From Trichocoleus sp. FACHB-46 (GTDB taxonomy: Bacteria > Cyanobacteriota > Cyanobacteriia > FACHB-46): a DNA stretch of 64,000 nt. The DNA is taken from NCBI RefSeq assembly GCF_014695385.1, contig NZ_JACJOD010000007.1:62001-126000 (forward strand). The letters run 5' to 3'. Both the position numbers and the translations under genes were made by a program. Below, in pieces: positions 28,137 to 35,523 of the stretch (position 1 is its first letter; each line of letters starts with the position of its first letter). The notes below the pieces were generated by a model. That model was not told the origin of the DNA, made no database searches, and saw nothing but the letters and a program-made list of their open reading frames with translations.

Positions 28137-28661
28137 TTAGAACTGAGAATCGAATTTCTCAATTTTGGGCCGAATATCGTTGAGGTCAATATAGCGATCG
28201 GTGGCGTTGCGAAGTTCACGAGCAATCATGCCCTCTGTTGATACCACTGTAATATGAGTGCTCTTGGAGCGGAGTAGTTCGATCGCCCGCTCGAAGTCAC
28301 CATCCCCACTAAACAAAACCACGCGATCGTACTGCTCAACAGTGTTGAACATATCGATCACAATCTCTATATCCAAATTGGCTTTTTGCGAGTAACGACC
28401 CGAATTGTCGTCGTAATACTCTTTCAGAATTTTGGTGCGGACGGTATAGCCTAGACTAATCAGGGCGTCACGAAAGCCACGTTGGTCTTGAGGATCTTTA
28501 ATTCCGGTATACCAAAAAGCATTGACCAACATGACATCCGGATCATTTGTAAAATGTTCCAAGACACGTCTTGGATCAAAAAACCAACCATTTTTTTGTT
28601 GCGCATAGAACATATTGTTCCCGTCTACAAAAATAGACAGACGGTTCATTGAGCAAGGCAT
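28137..28661 (-). CDS. LabA-like NYN-domain protein
   Basis: A 174-residue NYN (PIN-like) domain protein. RLSIFVDGNNMFYAQQ holds the first conserved Asp, KANLDIEIVIDMFNTVEQYD the middle ones, and VVLFSGDGDFERAIELLRSK the last acidic cluster, so the predicted metal-dependent RNase site is complete. Close relatives include LabA of Synechococcus elongatus, which affects circadian output and kaiBC expression; no kai gene lies here, so that role is not implied. The start could be the ATG at 28661 or the one at 28649 (MNRLSIF). It is upstream of leuA on the same strand with an 81-bp gap. Confidence 0.9.
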   Translation of the reverse strand: MPCSMNRLSIFVDGNNMFYAQQKNGWFFDPRRVLEHFTNDPDVMLVNAFWYTGIKDPQDQRGFRDALISLGYTVRTKILKEYYDDNSGRYSQKANLDIEIVIDMFNTVEQYDRVVLFSGDGDFERAIELLRSKSTHITVVSTEGMIARELRNATDRYIDLNDIRPKIEKFDSQF

Positions 28662-29425: not shown

Positions 29426-31909
29426 ATGAAACCAGCTAAATCACTGAGACAACCCATGCCAAAAGAACGAAGTTTGCTGCCAGCGCAGAAAAACATTGGT
29501 ACTACAGTTCGGCCTTTAGTAACTGAAAAGGTAAAGTCAACGAAGCCTGCACAGCGGTTTCTGAATCTGACTAACTTGGGTCACATCCTAACAGGCGTCT
29601 GGGCAGCAGCAGCAGCGATCGCGACGGCCACCAATATTCCGCTAGGCCAAATTATGGAGCGGCAAGCCCAAACTCTATTTTTTGAGTTGCGGGGTCCCAT
29701 TGCAGCACCGAGCAACATTGTAATTTTGGCGATCGATGATGAATCAATGTCTCAAGGGCAGTTCTATCGAGCCGATCCAAAGCAATATAAGTCGCTCGCG
29801 GCTCTAGAGACTTGGCCTTGGAAACGAGCCGCTTACGCTGAAGCCATTGACAAGTTGATGGCTGCTGGAGCCCGCTCTGTGGCTTTAGATATTGAGTTTA
29901 CAACGCCCAGCAGTTATGGCACCAAAGATGATGAGCGATTGCGTCAGAGCTTACAGCGCTATGCAGGTCGCGTCACTCTAGCCACTAAGTACGAAGACAT
30001 CATCAATGATCAAGGCGTTACTGCCCAGTTGACTCCCATTTATCCTCGTTTCCGCACTAATCCTCTTTCCGTGGGTTCAATTAATTTCCTGCTGGAGCCT
30101 GACAGCAAGGTGCATCGTCTAGGCAATCAATATTCTGCGCTTTTAGCTCAAGACCCTAACTTTGCTAGCGGATTACCTCAAAACGTACCTGATTTTGCTG
30201 AGGCGACGCTCAAGGCAGCCCAAGTAAAGCCTAGCAGCTCTCAGGGAGACCATATTTTTTTCTATGGCCCCGCAGGAACCTTCAAGCAAATTCCTTTTTG
30301 GCATGTGCTTGACCCTAGCTACTGGAATAATTACTTGAAACCAAATCAAGATTTTTCTTTCAAAAATAAGATTGTCTTGATTGGGTCAACGGCTGAGATT
30401 TTACAAGATTTTTTACCAACGCCCTTTTCTGCTAACTGGCTAAATTCTCAGGCCATGCCAGGGGTAGAAATTCATGCCAATGCGATCGCCACTTTAATGG
30501 AAGGTCGGGCGATCGCGGACGGGATTCCCGATCGGTCTTTACAAGGAATTTTTTGCTTAGTTGGTAGTATCGGCGTCGGTTTTTTATTGAGCTTCCCCAA
30601 GCGACCCTGGCTTCGGTGGCTATTAGTCATTGTCGCTCCTTTGAGCTGGGGGGGCGCTACTTACCTTATCTTTTCTTACGGTGGGTTGATTTTGCCCACG
30701 GCCTTACCAATCACCGCGATCGCTCTTAGTGGGCTTTCCTACACGTTTGCTAGCTCCACCCTTGAGCATTTCAAGAAGCTAAAGTTATGGCATACCCTTA
30801 AAAAATATATTGATTCTCCTCTCATCCAAACCATTATTAGCCAAAGTCAACAGGGACACGTCGGAGATCTATTACGAGAGCGAGAGACCGCCATCTTAGG
30901 CACTAAGCTTGATGGTCGGTATGTAATCACAAAGGTTCTAGGGTCAGGCGGATTCGGCGAAACCTACATTGCTGAAGATACCCGACGTCCTGGCAATCCC
31001 CAGTGTGTTGTGAAGCGACTGAAAACAGCCACCAACAACATCAATCTTTTAGAGATGGCAAAAAGGCTGTTTATCGGGGAGGCCGAAACTCTAGAGCGTC
31101 TTGGCAAGCACGATCAAATTCCTCAACTATTGGCCTATTTTGAGGAGAAGGAAGAGTTTTACCTAGTTCAAGAATTCATTCCTGGTCGTCCTTTAAGCCA
31201 CGAACTGACTTTAGGTAGACAGCTACCCGAAGCTCAAGTTATTGACCTACTTAAAGACTTGTTGCAAGTTCTTGCCTTTGTCCACAGTCAAGGCGTTATC
31301 CACCGAGACATCAAGCCTAGCAACATCATCAGACGGTTAACGGATGGCAAACTAGTCCTGATTGATTTTGGAGCTGTAAAGAGAATTCCTCACCTAGCCG
31401 AAAATGACACGCCAGACAGCATCACGGTTGGCATTGGTACTCAGGGATATATGCCCAGCGAACAATATGCTGGTACTCCGCGCTGCAATAGCGATCTGTA
31501 TGCTCTCGGTATTACAGCCATTCAAGCTCTGACTGGCATCCCCCCCAGTCAGTTCAAAAAAGACCAAGCAACTGAAGAAGTGTTGTGGCAGCATAAAACT
31601 GAGGTAAGCCATGAACTGGCAATCATACTCAGCAAACTCGTGCGTTATCACTTCAGCCAGCGCTACCAATCTGCCACTGAAGTTTTAGAAGCACTCCGAA
31701 AGCTAACAAGTACTAATCATTCAACTAGTTTTAACGCAGCGAATGGGCTTTCCCCTCTAGATATAGCCTATATGGATGTGGATGCCTCTACAGACCCAGT
31801 GTCGCTTACAGATGCTGCATTTTCTACAGTGGCTTGGCCCAATACTCTTGAAGGAGAAACAGAATCCACGGAGATCAGTGACCCCGTGGATAGTTCAGTA
31901 GATAGCTAA
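29426..31909 (+). CDS. CHASE2-domain serine/threonine protein kinase
   Basis: An 827-residue membrane kinase. A first hydrophobic helix (about 53-70, ILTGVWAAAAAIATATNIP) leads into an extracytoplasmic CHASE2 sensor domain (about 75-365: FFELRGPIAAPSNIVILAID, VALDIEFTTPS, KNKIVLIGSTAEILQD and GVEIHANAIATLM). Three membrane helices follow (about 370-450), then the kinase domain from about 494: VLGSGGFGETYIAED (P loop), CVVKRL (Lys), VIHRDIKPSNIIRR (catalytic loop) and LIDFGAVK (DFG), so it looks active. The C-terminal tail is Ser/Thr/Asp-rich. It converges on a FecR-domain gene 19 bp away. It is probably an envelope or stress sensor; the ligand is unknown. Confidence 0.95.
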   Translation: MKPAKSLRQPMPKERSLLPAQKNIGTTVRPLVTEKVKSTKPAQRFLNLTNLGHILTGVWAAAAAIATATNIPLGQIMERQAQTLFFELRGPIAAPSNIVILAIDDESMSQGQFYRADPKQYKSLAALETWPWKRAAYAEAIDKLMAAGARSVALDIEFTTPSSYGTKDDERLRQSLQRYAGRVTLATKYEDIINDQGVTAQLTPIYPRFRTNPLSVGSINFLLEPDSKVHRLGNQYSALLAQDPNFASGLPQNVPDFAEATLKAAQVKPSSSQGDHIFFYGPAGTFKQIPFWHVLDPSYWNNYLKPNQDFSFKNKIVLIGSTAEILQDFLPTPFSANWLNSQAMPGVEIHANAIATLMEGRAIADGIPDRSLQGIFCLVGSIGVGFLLSFPKRPWLRWLLVIVAPLSWGGATYLIFSYGGLILPTALPITAIALSGLSYTFASSTLEHFKKLKLWHTLKKYIDSPLIQTIISQSQQGHVGDLLRERETAILGTKLDGRYVITKVLGSGGFGETYIAEDTRRPGNPQCVVKRLKTATNNINLLEMAKRLFIGEAETLERLGKHDQIPQLLAYFEEKEEFYLVQEFIPGRPLSHELTLGRQLPEAQVIDLLKDLLQVLAFVHSQGVIHRDIKPSNIIRRLTDGKLVLIDFGAVKRIPHLAENDTPDSITVGIGTQGYMPSEQYAGTPRCNSDLYALGITAIQALTGIPPSQFKKDQATEEVLWQHKTEVSHELAIILSKLVRYHFSQRYQSATEVLEALRKLTSTNHSTSFNAANGLSPLDIAYMDVDASTDPVSLTDAAFSTVAWPNTLEGETESTEISDPVDSSVDS

Positions 31910-31928
31910 GGCGATCGCCTTAGTCTAT

Positions 31929-33776
31929 TTATTTGTCAATTGGAACCCGGCCAGGAAACTTACCCTCGGTTGCCCCACCACCTGGGAAGACACCATCATT
32001 GGCTTTACCAGGAAATTTACCATCATTGGCTTTACCAGGAAAATCACTACCCGGTGTTCCGCCATTAGGTGGCGTATTGCCAGTTGGATTGGTTGGATCT
32101 GTAGGTTGACCTCCGCCAGTCGGATTGGTTGGATCTGTAGGTTGGCCTCCGCCAGTCGGATTGGTTGGATTGGATATAGGGGTAGCAGGCGTTACTGGAG
32201 CTTGGCTAGGAAAATCGCCTCCCGTATTTCCTCCGCCAGGGAAGTTACCTCCGGTGTTTCCTTGACCAGGGAAGTTACCTGGCAAAGTCGGATCAATCGG
32301 CACTACTGGCACTCCTGATCCGGGTTCAACCAAGATAGGTGAACTCGGAATGATTACATCCGGTGAGCCGCCTGGGGGAGTATCAGTGGAAAGGTCTGGT
32401 AAAGCGTCAATAGGAGGATTTACATTAGGCTGGCCAATACCTGGATCATCTCCTTGAGTTTGACTGGGAAGGCTGGAGCCTGGAGTAACAGGAGAATTGG
32501 GGTTAGGAAGGGTATCAGGTTGCTTAGGCACCACGGGCAGCTCATCCGTGGGCGAAGGGGGCGTATTTGACCCTTGGGCAGGGGTGGGGGTAGGGGGAGT
32601 GGGTGTGGTGACTACGGGCGGCGTAGGAGTGCTAGGTTGCGAAATTGGAGTTGCTGGCTCTATGCGGCGAGGGGTGAGCAGTCTGGTGTCTGTTGGAGCA
32701 ACCGTCCTTGGTCTCTGCCCTAAGGAGTCTAGGGGACGAGGAGTTGAAGTGACTGGAGTGGGTTCAGGCGGTGAACTGATAGCGGGGTTGTCGCTAGGAG
32801 GTGGGTTTTGAGTAGAGGTGACTGGCTCCGGCGGTTGAGTCGCAGGTGGGGTAGTGCCAGCGACAGGTGGAACGCTACCAGAACCAGAACCAGGTTGTTG
32901 CGGTGAGGCTATGGTTTGATCGGATTGAGTTTTCTCTGGGTCGATAGCTCGGCGTACATCCACAGAATTGAAGACGCGATCGAGGTTGTTAACGGGAAAA
33001 TCAGCTGACTCAGAGGGCAAACGGACAAAGGTTGGGTTTTCGATGACGTTTGCGTTTTTGAAGGAGGACTGGCCTTGCAAAGCCTCTACTGTCTCAGCTC
33101 GAACTGCCGCGATCGCCTCATCTGAGGGACTAGCAGCATCCTTTTGCGTGAGATTCAGCCCTTTGACTAAATCACTGGTTTCATAGAAGGTATTGAGATC
33201 AAAGTCGTAGACTTGCTCAATCCGGTTTTTGACTATAACCGCCAACTGGCCAGCTCGTAAGCCTTGGCTTTGAGAAGCATCACGGTTATAAATTACCATT
33301 GGCCCTTGCGGGTTATTGGTCAGTGCCCCAACCAGGGTGGTATCTGTGTCAGGAATATAGCGGACAAACAAAGCAGAACCTTTAATGCCCGCCGCTGCAT
33401 TGGGGGTTCTTACTCCTGTAGGACCACGACCAGGCGGAATGAGGAGTAACATCGTGCCATTAGAGAGCTGAAATGTACGGGCATTAGGCACGAAACGAAA
33501 AACGGCTTGCTCACCCACACGAGCTAAAGAACCGTCATTAAAACGTAGCTCTGCTAGAGAAGCACGCGCCGTTGCTAGAGCATCGCCAGGAGCCATTGCA
33601 TCAGAAACTCGTGCCGATCGAACAGGTCGGGTTTTTTGCATTAACTGCACACGATTCCGGAGTGCCTGAATGACAGCACGAGTCAAGGGAGTTTTGGCAT
33701 CCGCAGGCTGCGTAAAGCTCCCAATAGTTAGACCCGACAGCATCAGAGCAAGGAACAGAGCTAATTTTTGAGACAT
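31929..33776 (-). CDS. secreted FecR-domain protein with long proline-rich tail
   Basis: 615 residues from the ATG at 33774-33776, preceded by AGGAA, in preference to a longer frame. A signal peptide is evident (MSQKLALFLALMLSGLTIGS, ending near ADA-KT). A FecR-like beta domain follows (about 40-160: MAPGDALATARASLAELRFN, ARTFQLSNGTMLLLIPPGRG, NAAAGIKGSALFVRY). Beyond about residue 270 the protein is Pro/Thr/Ser/Gly-rich and disordered, with 12-residue repeats (PTNPTGGGQPTD) and FPGK/FPGGG repeats to the C-terminus. The tail could span or bind the cell wall. It is divergent from the barrel gene and convergent with the CHASE2 kinase gene, suggesting one envelope-related locus. No sigma factor or TonB receptor gene is nearby, so classical FecR signalling is unlikely. 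Confidence 0.85.
   Translation of the reverse strand: MSQKLALFLALMLSGLTIGSFTQPADAKTPLTRAVIQALRNRVQLMQKTRPVRSARVSDAMAPGDALATARASLAELRFNDGSLARVGEQAVFRFVPNARTFQLSNGTMLLLIPPGRGPTGVRTPNAAAGIKGSALFVRYIPDTDTTLVGALTNNPQGPMVIYNRDASQSQGLRAGQLAVIVKNRIEQVYDFDLNTFYETSDLVKGLNLTQKDAASPSDEAIAAVRAETVEALQGQSSFKNANVIENPTFVRLPSESADFPVNNLDRVFNSVDVRRAIDPEKTQSDQTIASPQQPGSGSGSVPPVAGTTPPATQPPEPVTSTQNPPPSDNPAISSPPEPTPVTSTPRPLDSLGQRPRTVAPTDTRLLTPRRIEPATPISQPSTPTPPVVTTPTPPTPTPAQGSNTPPSPTDELPVVPKQPDTLPNPNSPVTPGSSLPSQTQGDDPGIGQPNVNPPIDALPDLSTDTPPGGSPDVIIPSSPILVEPGSGVPVVPIDPTLPGNFPGQGNTGGNFPGGGNTGGDFPSQAPVTPATPISNPTNPTGGGQPTDPTNPTGGGQPTDPTNPTGNTPPNGGTPGSDFPGKANDGKFPGKANDGVFPGGGATEGKFPGRVPIDK
32086..32173. repeat. 36-bp tandem repeat inside the FecR-domain gene
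   Basis: Two full 36-base units (32086-32121 and 32122-32157) differ at one base. A partial third follows from 32158. Each unit encodes 12 residues of the Pro/Thr/Gly tail. It is near-identical and in frame, so its length may vary between strains. Confidence 0.9.
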
Positions 33777-34092
33777 AAGCGGTTCCTGGCGGTGCAACAT
33801 CAAAATTTTATATGAAAGTTTTCCGATTTCCGTATATTCCCCTAAGGAAATATACATACAATCCAAGATTTGAATCTATTGACGAAAATTTTCGTCCGTT
33901 CTTTACTAACCAAGATGAACAAATTAGCTGGATTTCGTCTATTCCCTATATTAGGAATCACAACTTATCGGTAGGCATCCATTCAGGCGACGATCAACTT
34001 AGTTTGGTAGTTCCCTAAAACAAAAAATTTAAGCTAAAAACCCTGATTTATATTTCGTGCCACCCTAGCAACTAAGGAGAATTACTTCTACG
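33777..34092. other. divergent control region between FecR-domain and barrel genes
   Basis: 316 bp, AT-rich. A 68-codon frame at 33812-34018 has no ribosome site or recognisable protein features and I do not call it. An AAGGAG sequence lies 13 bases before the barrel ATG. No clear promoter boxes were identified. Confidence 0.5.
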
Positions 34093-35523
34093 ATGAGTTT
34101 CGGCTGGTTTTTCAGTAAATATACGGTATCCAACTTGCAAGTTTATCTACGCTTGTTTTATCATCCGCACCTCAGACTTTGGCAACACCTAGGTCTATGG
34201 CTGAGTCTTGCAGGTAGTTCAGCTTGTGCTACCGCAGCAACTGTTCCAATTCCGGAAGCTACTGTTGAGCCAACAGCCAATCCGGTTGTTTTGCCGCTGC
34301 CAAAATTTTTACAACCTGATAATAGCCTAGGAACAAAGCAGGATTCTGTATCCTTAGATGTAGGCTTCAGTTTACCAACCGTTGAAACTGAGATCCTATG
34401 GTCAGAGGTGACAGTAGAGCCATCCTTGACCAATCCAGCCTTAGCGAATCAAAACTTGCCGCTGAGATATCTGTCTCAGCTAAACGCGCCTTCTGAGGTT
34501 GAGGTGCAATCGCAGCAAGAGCGTCACCTGGAGCAAACATTAGCAGATCCAGAGCTGGGTAATTTGCGGTTGCAAAAACCAGGCGATGCCGCCCAGGAAA
34601 GTTCGGGAGAGCCAGAAGAGCCTGGAAAAACTACTGGTAATGAGTCTGATACATCTGATACAACAAATACAAGTAACTCTGAAGCAGAGCCACAAGCTGC
34701 TGATCCTGAGTTAGGCAACTTGCGCCTACAGGAGTCTGTAGAGAACAGCAATCAACAACTTGACCCAGAACTCGGTACACTGCACCTGAGACAACAACCT
34801 GTGCAGGCTGTTCGTTCCCAGCGAACTGTTTACTTGCAAGGTCGGGTTGATTTTTTCCAAAGTGACAACATTTTTTCCAGTGTTGACCCCATTAATGACA
34901 GCTTGATTCGCACGGGACTGAGCCTGTGGGCAACTCCAGCGATCGGGCCTAAAACCTATTTAATTGGCTCTATCAATGCCAATCTGATCAAATATGCCAA
35001 CTTGGATGACTTCGACTACAACGAAGTACGGGTTGGGGCATCCATCTATCAACAACTCACTCCCAAAATGTACGGGGAGGTGGGCTTAAGCAATCAACAG
35101 TTATTTACGGCTGGAGGCGGCGATCGCTTCCTAAATGACAACTCCATCCGTCTGGGTCTGGGCCGCCGAGATTCTCTTGGCAGCGCGGTAACCATTGATA
35201 GCTTCTACCAACTGCGCTATAGCTTTGCTGATCCGAGCGATCGCAGCCGAGTGGTCAATGCCTTGGGTGCATCTCTGAATTACAACCCGACTAGTAAAGT
35301 TCAGACAGGGCTGGACTATCAGTACGTACTATCGAGCTTTACGGAGCAAGGACGGGAAGACAACTATCACCAACTGCTGGCTCGTCTAAGTTATGACTGG
35401 TCTCGCAACAGCCGCATTACGGTATTCGGAGGCTTCGGCTTCGGCAACTCTTCTAACCGCAATGTAGATTTTGACAGCTCTATTCTGGGCGTCAGCTTAT
35501 CTGTCAACCTGCCCCTCTTCTAA
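34093..35523 (+). CDS. predicted outer-membrane beta-barrel protein with DPELGNLRL repeats
   Basis: A 476-residue protein. The hydrophobic N-terminal stretch LGLWLSLAGSSACATAATVP looks like a signal peptide. Residues 60-240 are acidic, Ser/Thr/Glu-rich and disordered, with three copies of a motif: DPELGNLRLQ near residue 151, DPELGNLRLQ near 203, and DPELGTLHLR near 223. From about 245 the protein alternates polar and hydrophobic residues in strands (VYLQGRVDFFQSDNIFSSVD, GASIYQQLTPKMYGEVGLSN, QTGLDYQYVLSSF, SRNSRITVFGGFGFGNSS) and ends in a terminal Phe, as outer-membrane barrels do. I recall the same short motif in other cyanobacterial envelope proteins but know of no assigned function. It is divergent from the FecR-domain gene. 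Confidence 0.7.
   Translation: MSFGWFFSKYTVSNLQVYLRLFYHPHLRLWQHLGLWLSLAGSSACATAATVPIPEATVEPTANPVVLPLPKFLQPDNSLGTKQDSVSLDVGFSLPTVETEILWSEVTVEPSLTNPALANQNLPLRYLSQLNAPSEVEVQSQQERHLEQTLADPELGNLRLQKPGDAAQESSGEPEEPGKTTGNESDTSDTTNTSNSEAEPQAADPELGNLRLQESVENSNQQLDPELGTLHLRQQPVQAVRSQRTVYLQGRVDFFQSDNIFSSVDPINDSLIRTGLSLWATPAIGPKTYLIGSINANLIKYANLDDFDYNEVRVGASIYQQLTPKMYGEVGLSNQQLFTAGGGDRFLNDNSIRLGLGRRDSLGSAVTIDSFYQLRYSFADPSDRSRVVNALGASLNYNPTSKVQTGLDYQYVLSSFTEQGREDNYHQLLARLSYDWSRNSRITVFGGFGFGNSSNRNVDFDSSILGVSLSVNLPLF

Follow-up and report, generated by a model that had tools for sequence, protein, structure and literature searches.

A CHASE2 Ser/Thr kinase, a secreted FecR-domain protein and an outer-membrane barrel as a candidate trans-envelope signalling set in cyanobacteria

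The three-gene locus

We describe here a set of three adjacent genes in the cyanobacterium Trichocoleus sp. FACHB-46, encoding a membrane Ser/Thr kinase with a CHASE2 sensor domain, a secreted FecR-domain protein and an outer-membrane beta-barrel protein. They were studied in a stretch of 64,000 nucleotides (the window; G000:C7:62001-126000, on contig NZ_JACJOD010000007.1), part of a 6.56 Mb genome. The genes for the kinase (plus strand), the FecR protein (minus strand) and the barrel (plus strand) lie side by side at 29426-35523; those for FecR and kinase are convergent with 19 bp between them, and those for FecR and barrel are divergent, the barrel start lying 316 bp from the FecR ATG. An earlier note on this DNA, made from the sequence alone, had presented the three genes as one envelope locus. 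Their adjacency stands, but because their strands alternate (+, -, +) they do not form a single operon or transcription unit.

The kinase gene (29426-31909, plus strand) encodes 827 residues with Pfam matches to CHASE2 and Pkinase far above cut-off. The CHASE2 domain, an extracytoplasmic sensor region, occupies residues 62-372 (29609-30541; PF05226, E 1.8e-47), and is followed by hydrophobic segments at residues ~372-435 (30539-30730) that are, judging by hydropathy, probable transmembrane helices; a further hydrophobic segment lies at residues 48-69. The Ser/Thr kinase domain (residues 499-754, 30920-31687; PF00069, E 3.6e-35) has its catalytic motifs intact, including the glycine loop, Lys, HRDIKPSN and DFG. 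With an N-terminal CHASE2 domain and a catalytic Hanks-type domain it matches the cyanobacterial CHASE2 Ser/Thr kinases described previously (cbSTKII with CHASE2, PMC2176072).

The FecR gene (31929-33776, minus strand) encodes 615 residues counted from an ATG at 33776, with a PF04773 score of 26.4 bits (gathering score 24) and no further Pfam domain. This ATG is likely the true start, rather than the TTG at 33866 of the mechanical open reading frame, since orthologues align from near that Met and a signal-peptide-like N-terminus occurs there. The N-terminus, MSQKLALFLALMLSGLTIGSFTQPADAK, contains no lipobox Cys. For neither FecR nor the barrel was a convincing sequence relative found among solved structures, and so fold comparison was used for both. 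In an AlphaFold model, residues 31-240 (33057-33686) form a folded, all-beta domain with a predicted local distance difference test score (pLDDT) mostly of 85-96, which matches the cell-surface-signalling domain of PupR (6ovk_R; Z 15.1, root-mean-square deviation 2.2 over 137 residues) with a much higher score than unrelated folds, and whose N-terminal half resembles the cell-surface anchoring domain 5ix9 (Z 9.6). The match spans PupR residues 111-267, and the window protein is disordered beyond residue 270; the STN subdomain of PupR spans 250-324, and it is the full two-subdomain region that binds the periplasmic domain of the outer-membrane receptor (PMC7186176). The window FecR protein retains only the first PupR subdomain. 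Neither Pfam nor the AlphaFold model gives it an N-terminal cytoplasmic anti-sigma domain, the signal-peptide-like stretch being followed directly by the FecR fold. The remainder (residues 271-615, 31932-32966; pLDDT mostly 34-63) is a disordered tail of 345 residues that is 23.8% Pro and carries six FPG repeats. Tail composition differs widely between orthologues, some of which have little Pro.

The third gene (34093-35523, plus strand) encodes 476 residues and belongs to a family of 35 sequences, on whose alignment its AlphaFold model was built. Pfam returns only weak barrel matches. The model has 12 long strands forming a beta-barrel at residues 246-474 (34828-35514; pLDDT mostly >90), a C-terminal Phe and a disordered N-terminal half, and its best counterparts among solved structures are outer-membrane channels, CymA, OmpG and FapF among them, together with autotransporter barrels (Z 15-17). 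The disordered half carries three DPELGxLxL motifs (34546-34781, starting at 34546, 34702 and 34762). A DPELG motif is kept directly upstream of the barrel throughout the family, and its LG is invariant in all 35 rows. Across the 6.56 Mb genome, the string DPELG(N/T)L is confined to the barrel protein, which has three copies; this count is not above background, and only the location is notable. The identities that the earlier note had proposed for all three products, including an extracytoplasmic CHASE2 domain, a secreted FecR protein with a long Pro-rich tail and an outer-membrane barrel, are thus borne out by domain matches and structure models.

Conservation and co-inheritance in cyanobacteria

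Gene neighbourhoods were surveyed in 116 cyanobacterial genomes. A long, window-type FecR gene lies within 4 kb of 40 of the 46 barrel genes detected, divergently in 27 cases and on the same strand in 13, and several of the barrels without a nearby FecR gene are in fragmented assemblies. Second barrel copies (for example at G094:C39 and G102:C55) also have a FecR neighbour. The kinase orthologue stands beside FecR in 18 of 44 cases, in either of two arrangements, convergent or as a tandem kinase-FecR-barrel series. The earlier note had named a lack of such neighbourhoods in other genomes as a refutation, and the neighbourhood survey that it had called for did not refute its interpretation: barrel and FecR adjoin in most genomes that have them, and kinase and FecR in ~40%.

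A second survey covered 100 FecR-centred cyanobacterial regions. These cyanobacterial FecR counts derive from an earlier profile, as an iterated profile drifted and lost the long cyanobacterial FecR proteins. FecR genes occur in a short form (~300 residues) and a long, often Pro-rich form, and a FecR gene is found no more than 1 kb from 55 of the 56 CHASE2 genes in the regions. Short FecR genes stand directly upstream of CHASE2 on the same strand (35 pairs), mostly with CHASE2 histidine kinases or cyclases; long ones adjoin CHASE2 receptors that are mostly Ser/Thr kinases, either convergently (11) or downstream on the same strand (8). The genome of the window encodes FecR twice and CHASE2 eight times, and each FecR gene has a CHASE2 gene for a neighbour. 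In three genomes (L045, L072 and L076) the barrel lies between two FecR/CHASE2 systems, the other flank being a short FecR gene with a CHASE2 cyclase. A family of small, apparently secreted proteins adjoins short FecR genes in nine loci (for example L108:7527-7970).

Among 388 genomes of the class, the kinase orthologue is present in 135, almost always as a single copy, and inspection of 20 unlinked orthologues showed every one to be a CHASE2 Ser/Thr kinase. Kinase and barrel occur together in 131 genomes, the kinase alone in four, the barrel alone in six and neither in 247; the discordant genomes are mostly fragmented drafts. The same holds at finer scale: one family (f32) comprises 13 genomes with both, nine with neither and none discordant, another (f25) has 10 with both, one with the barrel only, none with the kinase only and 17 with neither, and one genus (g84) has two with both and six with neither. 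In 19 of the 26 genomes with both genes on one contig, kinase and barrel are 0.04-3 Mb apart, so that physical linkage is not the cause of their co-occurrence. As a control, CHASE2 relatives of cyclase-like length were found in many barrel-free genomes. The shared inheritance and loss of barrel, FecR and kinase suggests that they belong to one trans-envelope signalling chain, and their functional coupling is well supported by the genomics.

FecR and CHASE2 beyond cyanobacteria

In other bacteria, FecR is encoded no more than 2.5 kb away at 35 of 79 CHASE2-cyclase loci (a count that pools all FecR profiles), against two FecR genes farther off in the same loci. These loci include members of Nitrospirota and Sulfurimonas as well as Clostridium and Paenibacillus, which lack an outer membrane. 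Since the pairing exists without an outer membrane, the more widespread partner of CHASE2 seems to be FecR, with the barrel apparently added in bacteria that possess such a membrane. Large FecR-domain proteins are encoded directly downstream of CHASE2 cyclases in Clostridium (L259:9797-14785) and Paenibacillus (L269:9933-12233), and at two further loci (L211:2-2239, L212:2445-7790) FecR is fused to cadherin-like and Ig adhesin repeats beside CHASE2 cyclases. On a Sphingobium plasmid (L194), a CHASE2 cyclase gene is flanked by a CHAT-domain gene on one side and, two genes further on, by a two-partner secretion barrel of the ShlB/FhaC type, a further case of CHASE2 near an outer-membrane barrel.

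The closest known parallel is NsrA of Sinorhizobium meliloti, an outer-membrane receptor required for signal perception via CHASE2 cyclases (PMC7529298). Like the window set, NsrA with CyaK, CyaD1 and CyaD2 genetically ties FecR and an outer-membrane barrel to a CHASE2 receptor. On pSymB, nsrA overlaps cyaK, and its product combines a FecR domain (PF04773, E 2.3e-15) with TPR repeats and a barrel portion at residues 600-1200 (PMC7529298). NsrA thus joins, in one natural fusion, the two kinds of protein that the window locus encodes separately. NsrA is, however, a single chain that also includes TPR repeats, and its barrel is larger; the window locus has separate genes for FecR and barrel and no TPR match in Pfam. 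The NsrA system delivers cyclic AMP from an adenylate cyclase, where the window output domain is a Ser/Thr kinase. Direct homology between the two barrels was not found by hhalign, and with no recognisable relation between them the likeness to NsrA is one of design, not of proven descent.

Two other reported gene sets are similar. A cluster in Campylobacterota (PMC9239204) comprises a CHASE2 cyclase, a FecR-domain outer-membrane protein, a TPR protein and a phosphodiesterase; it too places FecR and an outer-membrane protein by a CHASE2 receptor, but with a cyclase output and a different gene set, its role in that paper being a predicted one. The Burkholderia BiofilmReg operon (PMC5192318) encodes a response regulator, a LysM-FecR protein, a CHASE2 histidine kinase and a DUF4136 protein. 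It shares with the window locus a periplasmic FecR beside a CHASE2 kinase and resembles the cyanobacterial operons of short FecR and CHASE2, but uses a histidine kinase and response regulator and has no reported barrel. The classical FecI/FecR/FecA and PupI/PupR/PupB systems share the FecR fold and the logic of an outer-membrane protein acting through a periplasmic FecR on the cytoplasm. Classical signalling of this type can be rejected for the window locus, where sigma factor, anti-sigma, STN and TonB-dependent receptor are all absent and FecR is secreted rather than membrane-anchored. The earlier note had thought it unlikely on seeing no sigma factor or TonB receptor; among the neighbouring proteins, searched with Pfam, neither an extracytoplasmic function sigma factor nor a TonB-dependent receptor adjoins the FecR gene.

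A proposed signalling chain and its alternatives

We hypothesize, with a probability of about 0.6, that the products of the three genes work as a single trans-envelope signalling chain, a counterpart of the rhizobial NsrA/CHASE2-cyclase receptor that is divided among separate proteins and has a Ser/Thr kinase as its output. The 12-strand barrel in the outer membrane would report an external cue or the condition of the outer membrane itself; the periplasmic FecR protein, with its PupR-type fold, would connect the barrel with CHASE2 of the kinase in the inner membrane, probably by way of the DPELGxLRL periplasmic motifs of the barrel; and the kinase would phosphorylate cytoplasmic targets. Parts, folds, conserved pairing and co-inheritance are established by computation; we infer that the signal would run from outside in and by physical contact, and the DPELG motifs and the Pro-rich tail may have a role in it. 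The NsrA fusion beside a CHASE2 cyclase, together with its published role as a receptor, makes presentation of a signal to CHASE2 by barrel and FecR the best reading. The earlier note had suggested such a presentation; conserved pairing, co-inheritance and the NsrA precedent all speak for it, with a caution from S. meliloti discussed below. The note's statement that no function had been described for the set remains true of the split kinase form in the literature that we found, but not of the principle, given NsrA (PMC7529298). A broader proposition, which we hold more tentatively and at a little short of even odds, is that FecR-fold proteins are general extracytoplasmic partners of CHASE2, and that the cyanobacterial pair gained a dedicated barrel, docked through DPELGxLRL, that signals directly to a Hanks-type kinase.

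Several observations weigh against a three-part chain of this kind. The kinase is unlinked in ~60% of genomes. The overall Fisher value for kinase-barrel co-occurrence, 4e-90, ignores shared ancestry, and the within-family contrasts of ~1e-6 are the fairer figures. The STN subdomain, a docking requirement in PupR (PMC7186176), was not found in the window FecR protein by Pfam. The window and NsrA barrels align with an hhalign probability of 0.6% and may have been recruited independently, although barrels diverge beyond what profiles can recognise and a missing match does not prove that they are unrelated. SMc02177, a FecR protein encoded beside S. meliloti cyaD1, is dispensable for perception (PMC5498481), and our search of the literature on CHASE2 with FecR or barrels found no published experiments on the window proteins themselves.

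The main rival explanation, which we consider unlikely, reverses the relationship, such that FecR and barrel are an output: the Pro-rich FecR protein would form a surface structure that the barrel anchors or exports, and the kinase would sense something different and regulate the production or assembly of both. The pairing of FecR with the barrel is indeed tighter than that of FecR with the kinase, the long disordered tail looks like a surface or secreted segment, and both the resemblance to the anchoring domain 5ix9 and the joining of FecR domains elsewhere to adhesin-like cadherin and Ig repeats speak for this reading. The dispensable SMc02177 gene is moreover a target of the S. meliloti cascade (PMC5498481). 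Set against this, FecR is linked to CHASE2 even where this barrel is missing, and in S. meliloti the cyclases act downstream of the NsrA fusion (PMC7529298).

It is less probable still, by analogy with RcsF, that the set is an envelope-integrity sensor in which the Pro-rich tail threads or plugs the barrel, and failed assembly or outer-membrane damage frees FecR for CHASE2. RcsF and its outer-membrane partners offer a precedent in which an extended segment and a barrel signal to a kinase pathway at the inner membrane, the Rcs phosphorelay, with RcsF threaded through the barrel lumen (PMC4942254), and the window set combines a long extended tail with a dedicated barrel. RcsF is, however, a lipoprotein that uses several general outer-membrane barrels, and we found no sequence relation between it and the window proteins; the window FecR protein has no lipobox, and tails vary in composition among orthologues, to the point of being Pro-poor in some. 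A chance or merely inherited neighbourhood without functional coupling is strongly disfavoured. Such an origin would fit the differing strands of the three genes and the old synteny, common to several loci, of leuA, the NYN gene and an sseA-like rhodanese gene, yet wide recurrence across regions is confined to CHASE2, FecR and barrel, and kinase and barrel co-occur even when distant and are jointly absent within families and one genus.

Other features of the locus

Beyond the three genes, the locus encodes NYN, rhodanese, zinc-ribbon-like and GDSL proteins, LeuA and a translation-factor-type GTPase. When neighbouring genes were clustered, the only wide families were CHASE2, FecR and barrel. 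A recurrent fourth gene was sought and rejected, as the candidates, NYN (11 loci) and rhodanese (8 loci), resemble old synteny; the NYN-domain gene beside the kinase (28137-28661), present in 11 of the surveyed regions, looks like old synteny together with leuA. The divergent region between FecR and barrel (33777-34092) has conserved blocks in two congeners. Within it is a perfect 16-bp palindrome, GACGAAAATTTTCGTC (33881-33896), kept with one mismatch in the two congeners and without a second genomic copy when one mismatch is allowed, which is a possible operator.

Significance

To our knowledge, few details have been established of how surface signals reach Hanks-type kinases in bacteria with two membranes. 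The cues that CHASE2 domains detect have been described as unknown (PMC5192318). In the literature on CHASE2 with FecR or barrels we found no description of this cyanobacterial set, and its architecture unites three reports that are not linked in the papers cited: NsrA, the Burkholderia biofilm operon and the Campylobacterota cluster. With FecR as a regular partner of CHASE2, and a barrel co-inherited with one particular kinase across a broad set of cyanobacteria, a testable wiring is suggested that would run from barrel to FecR to CHASE2 to kinase.

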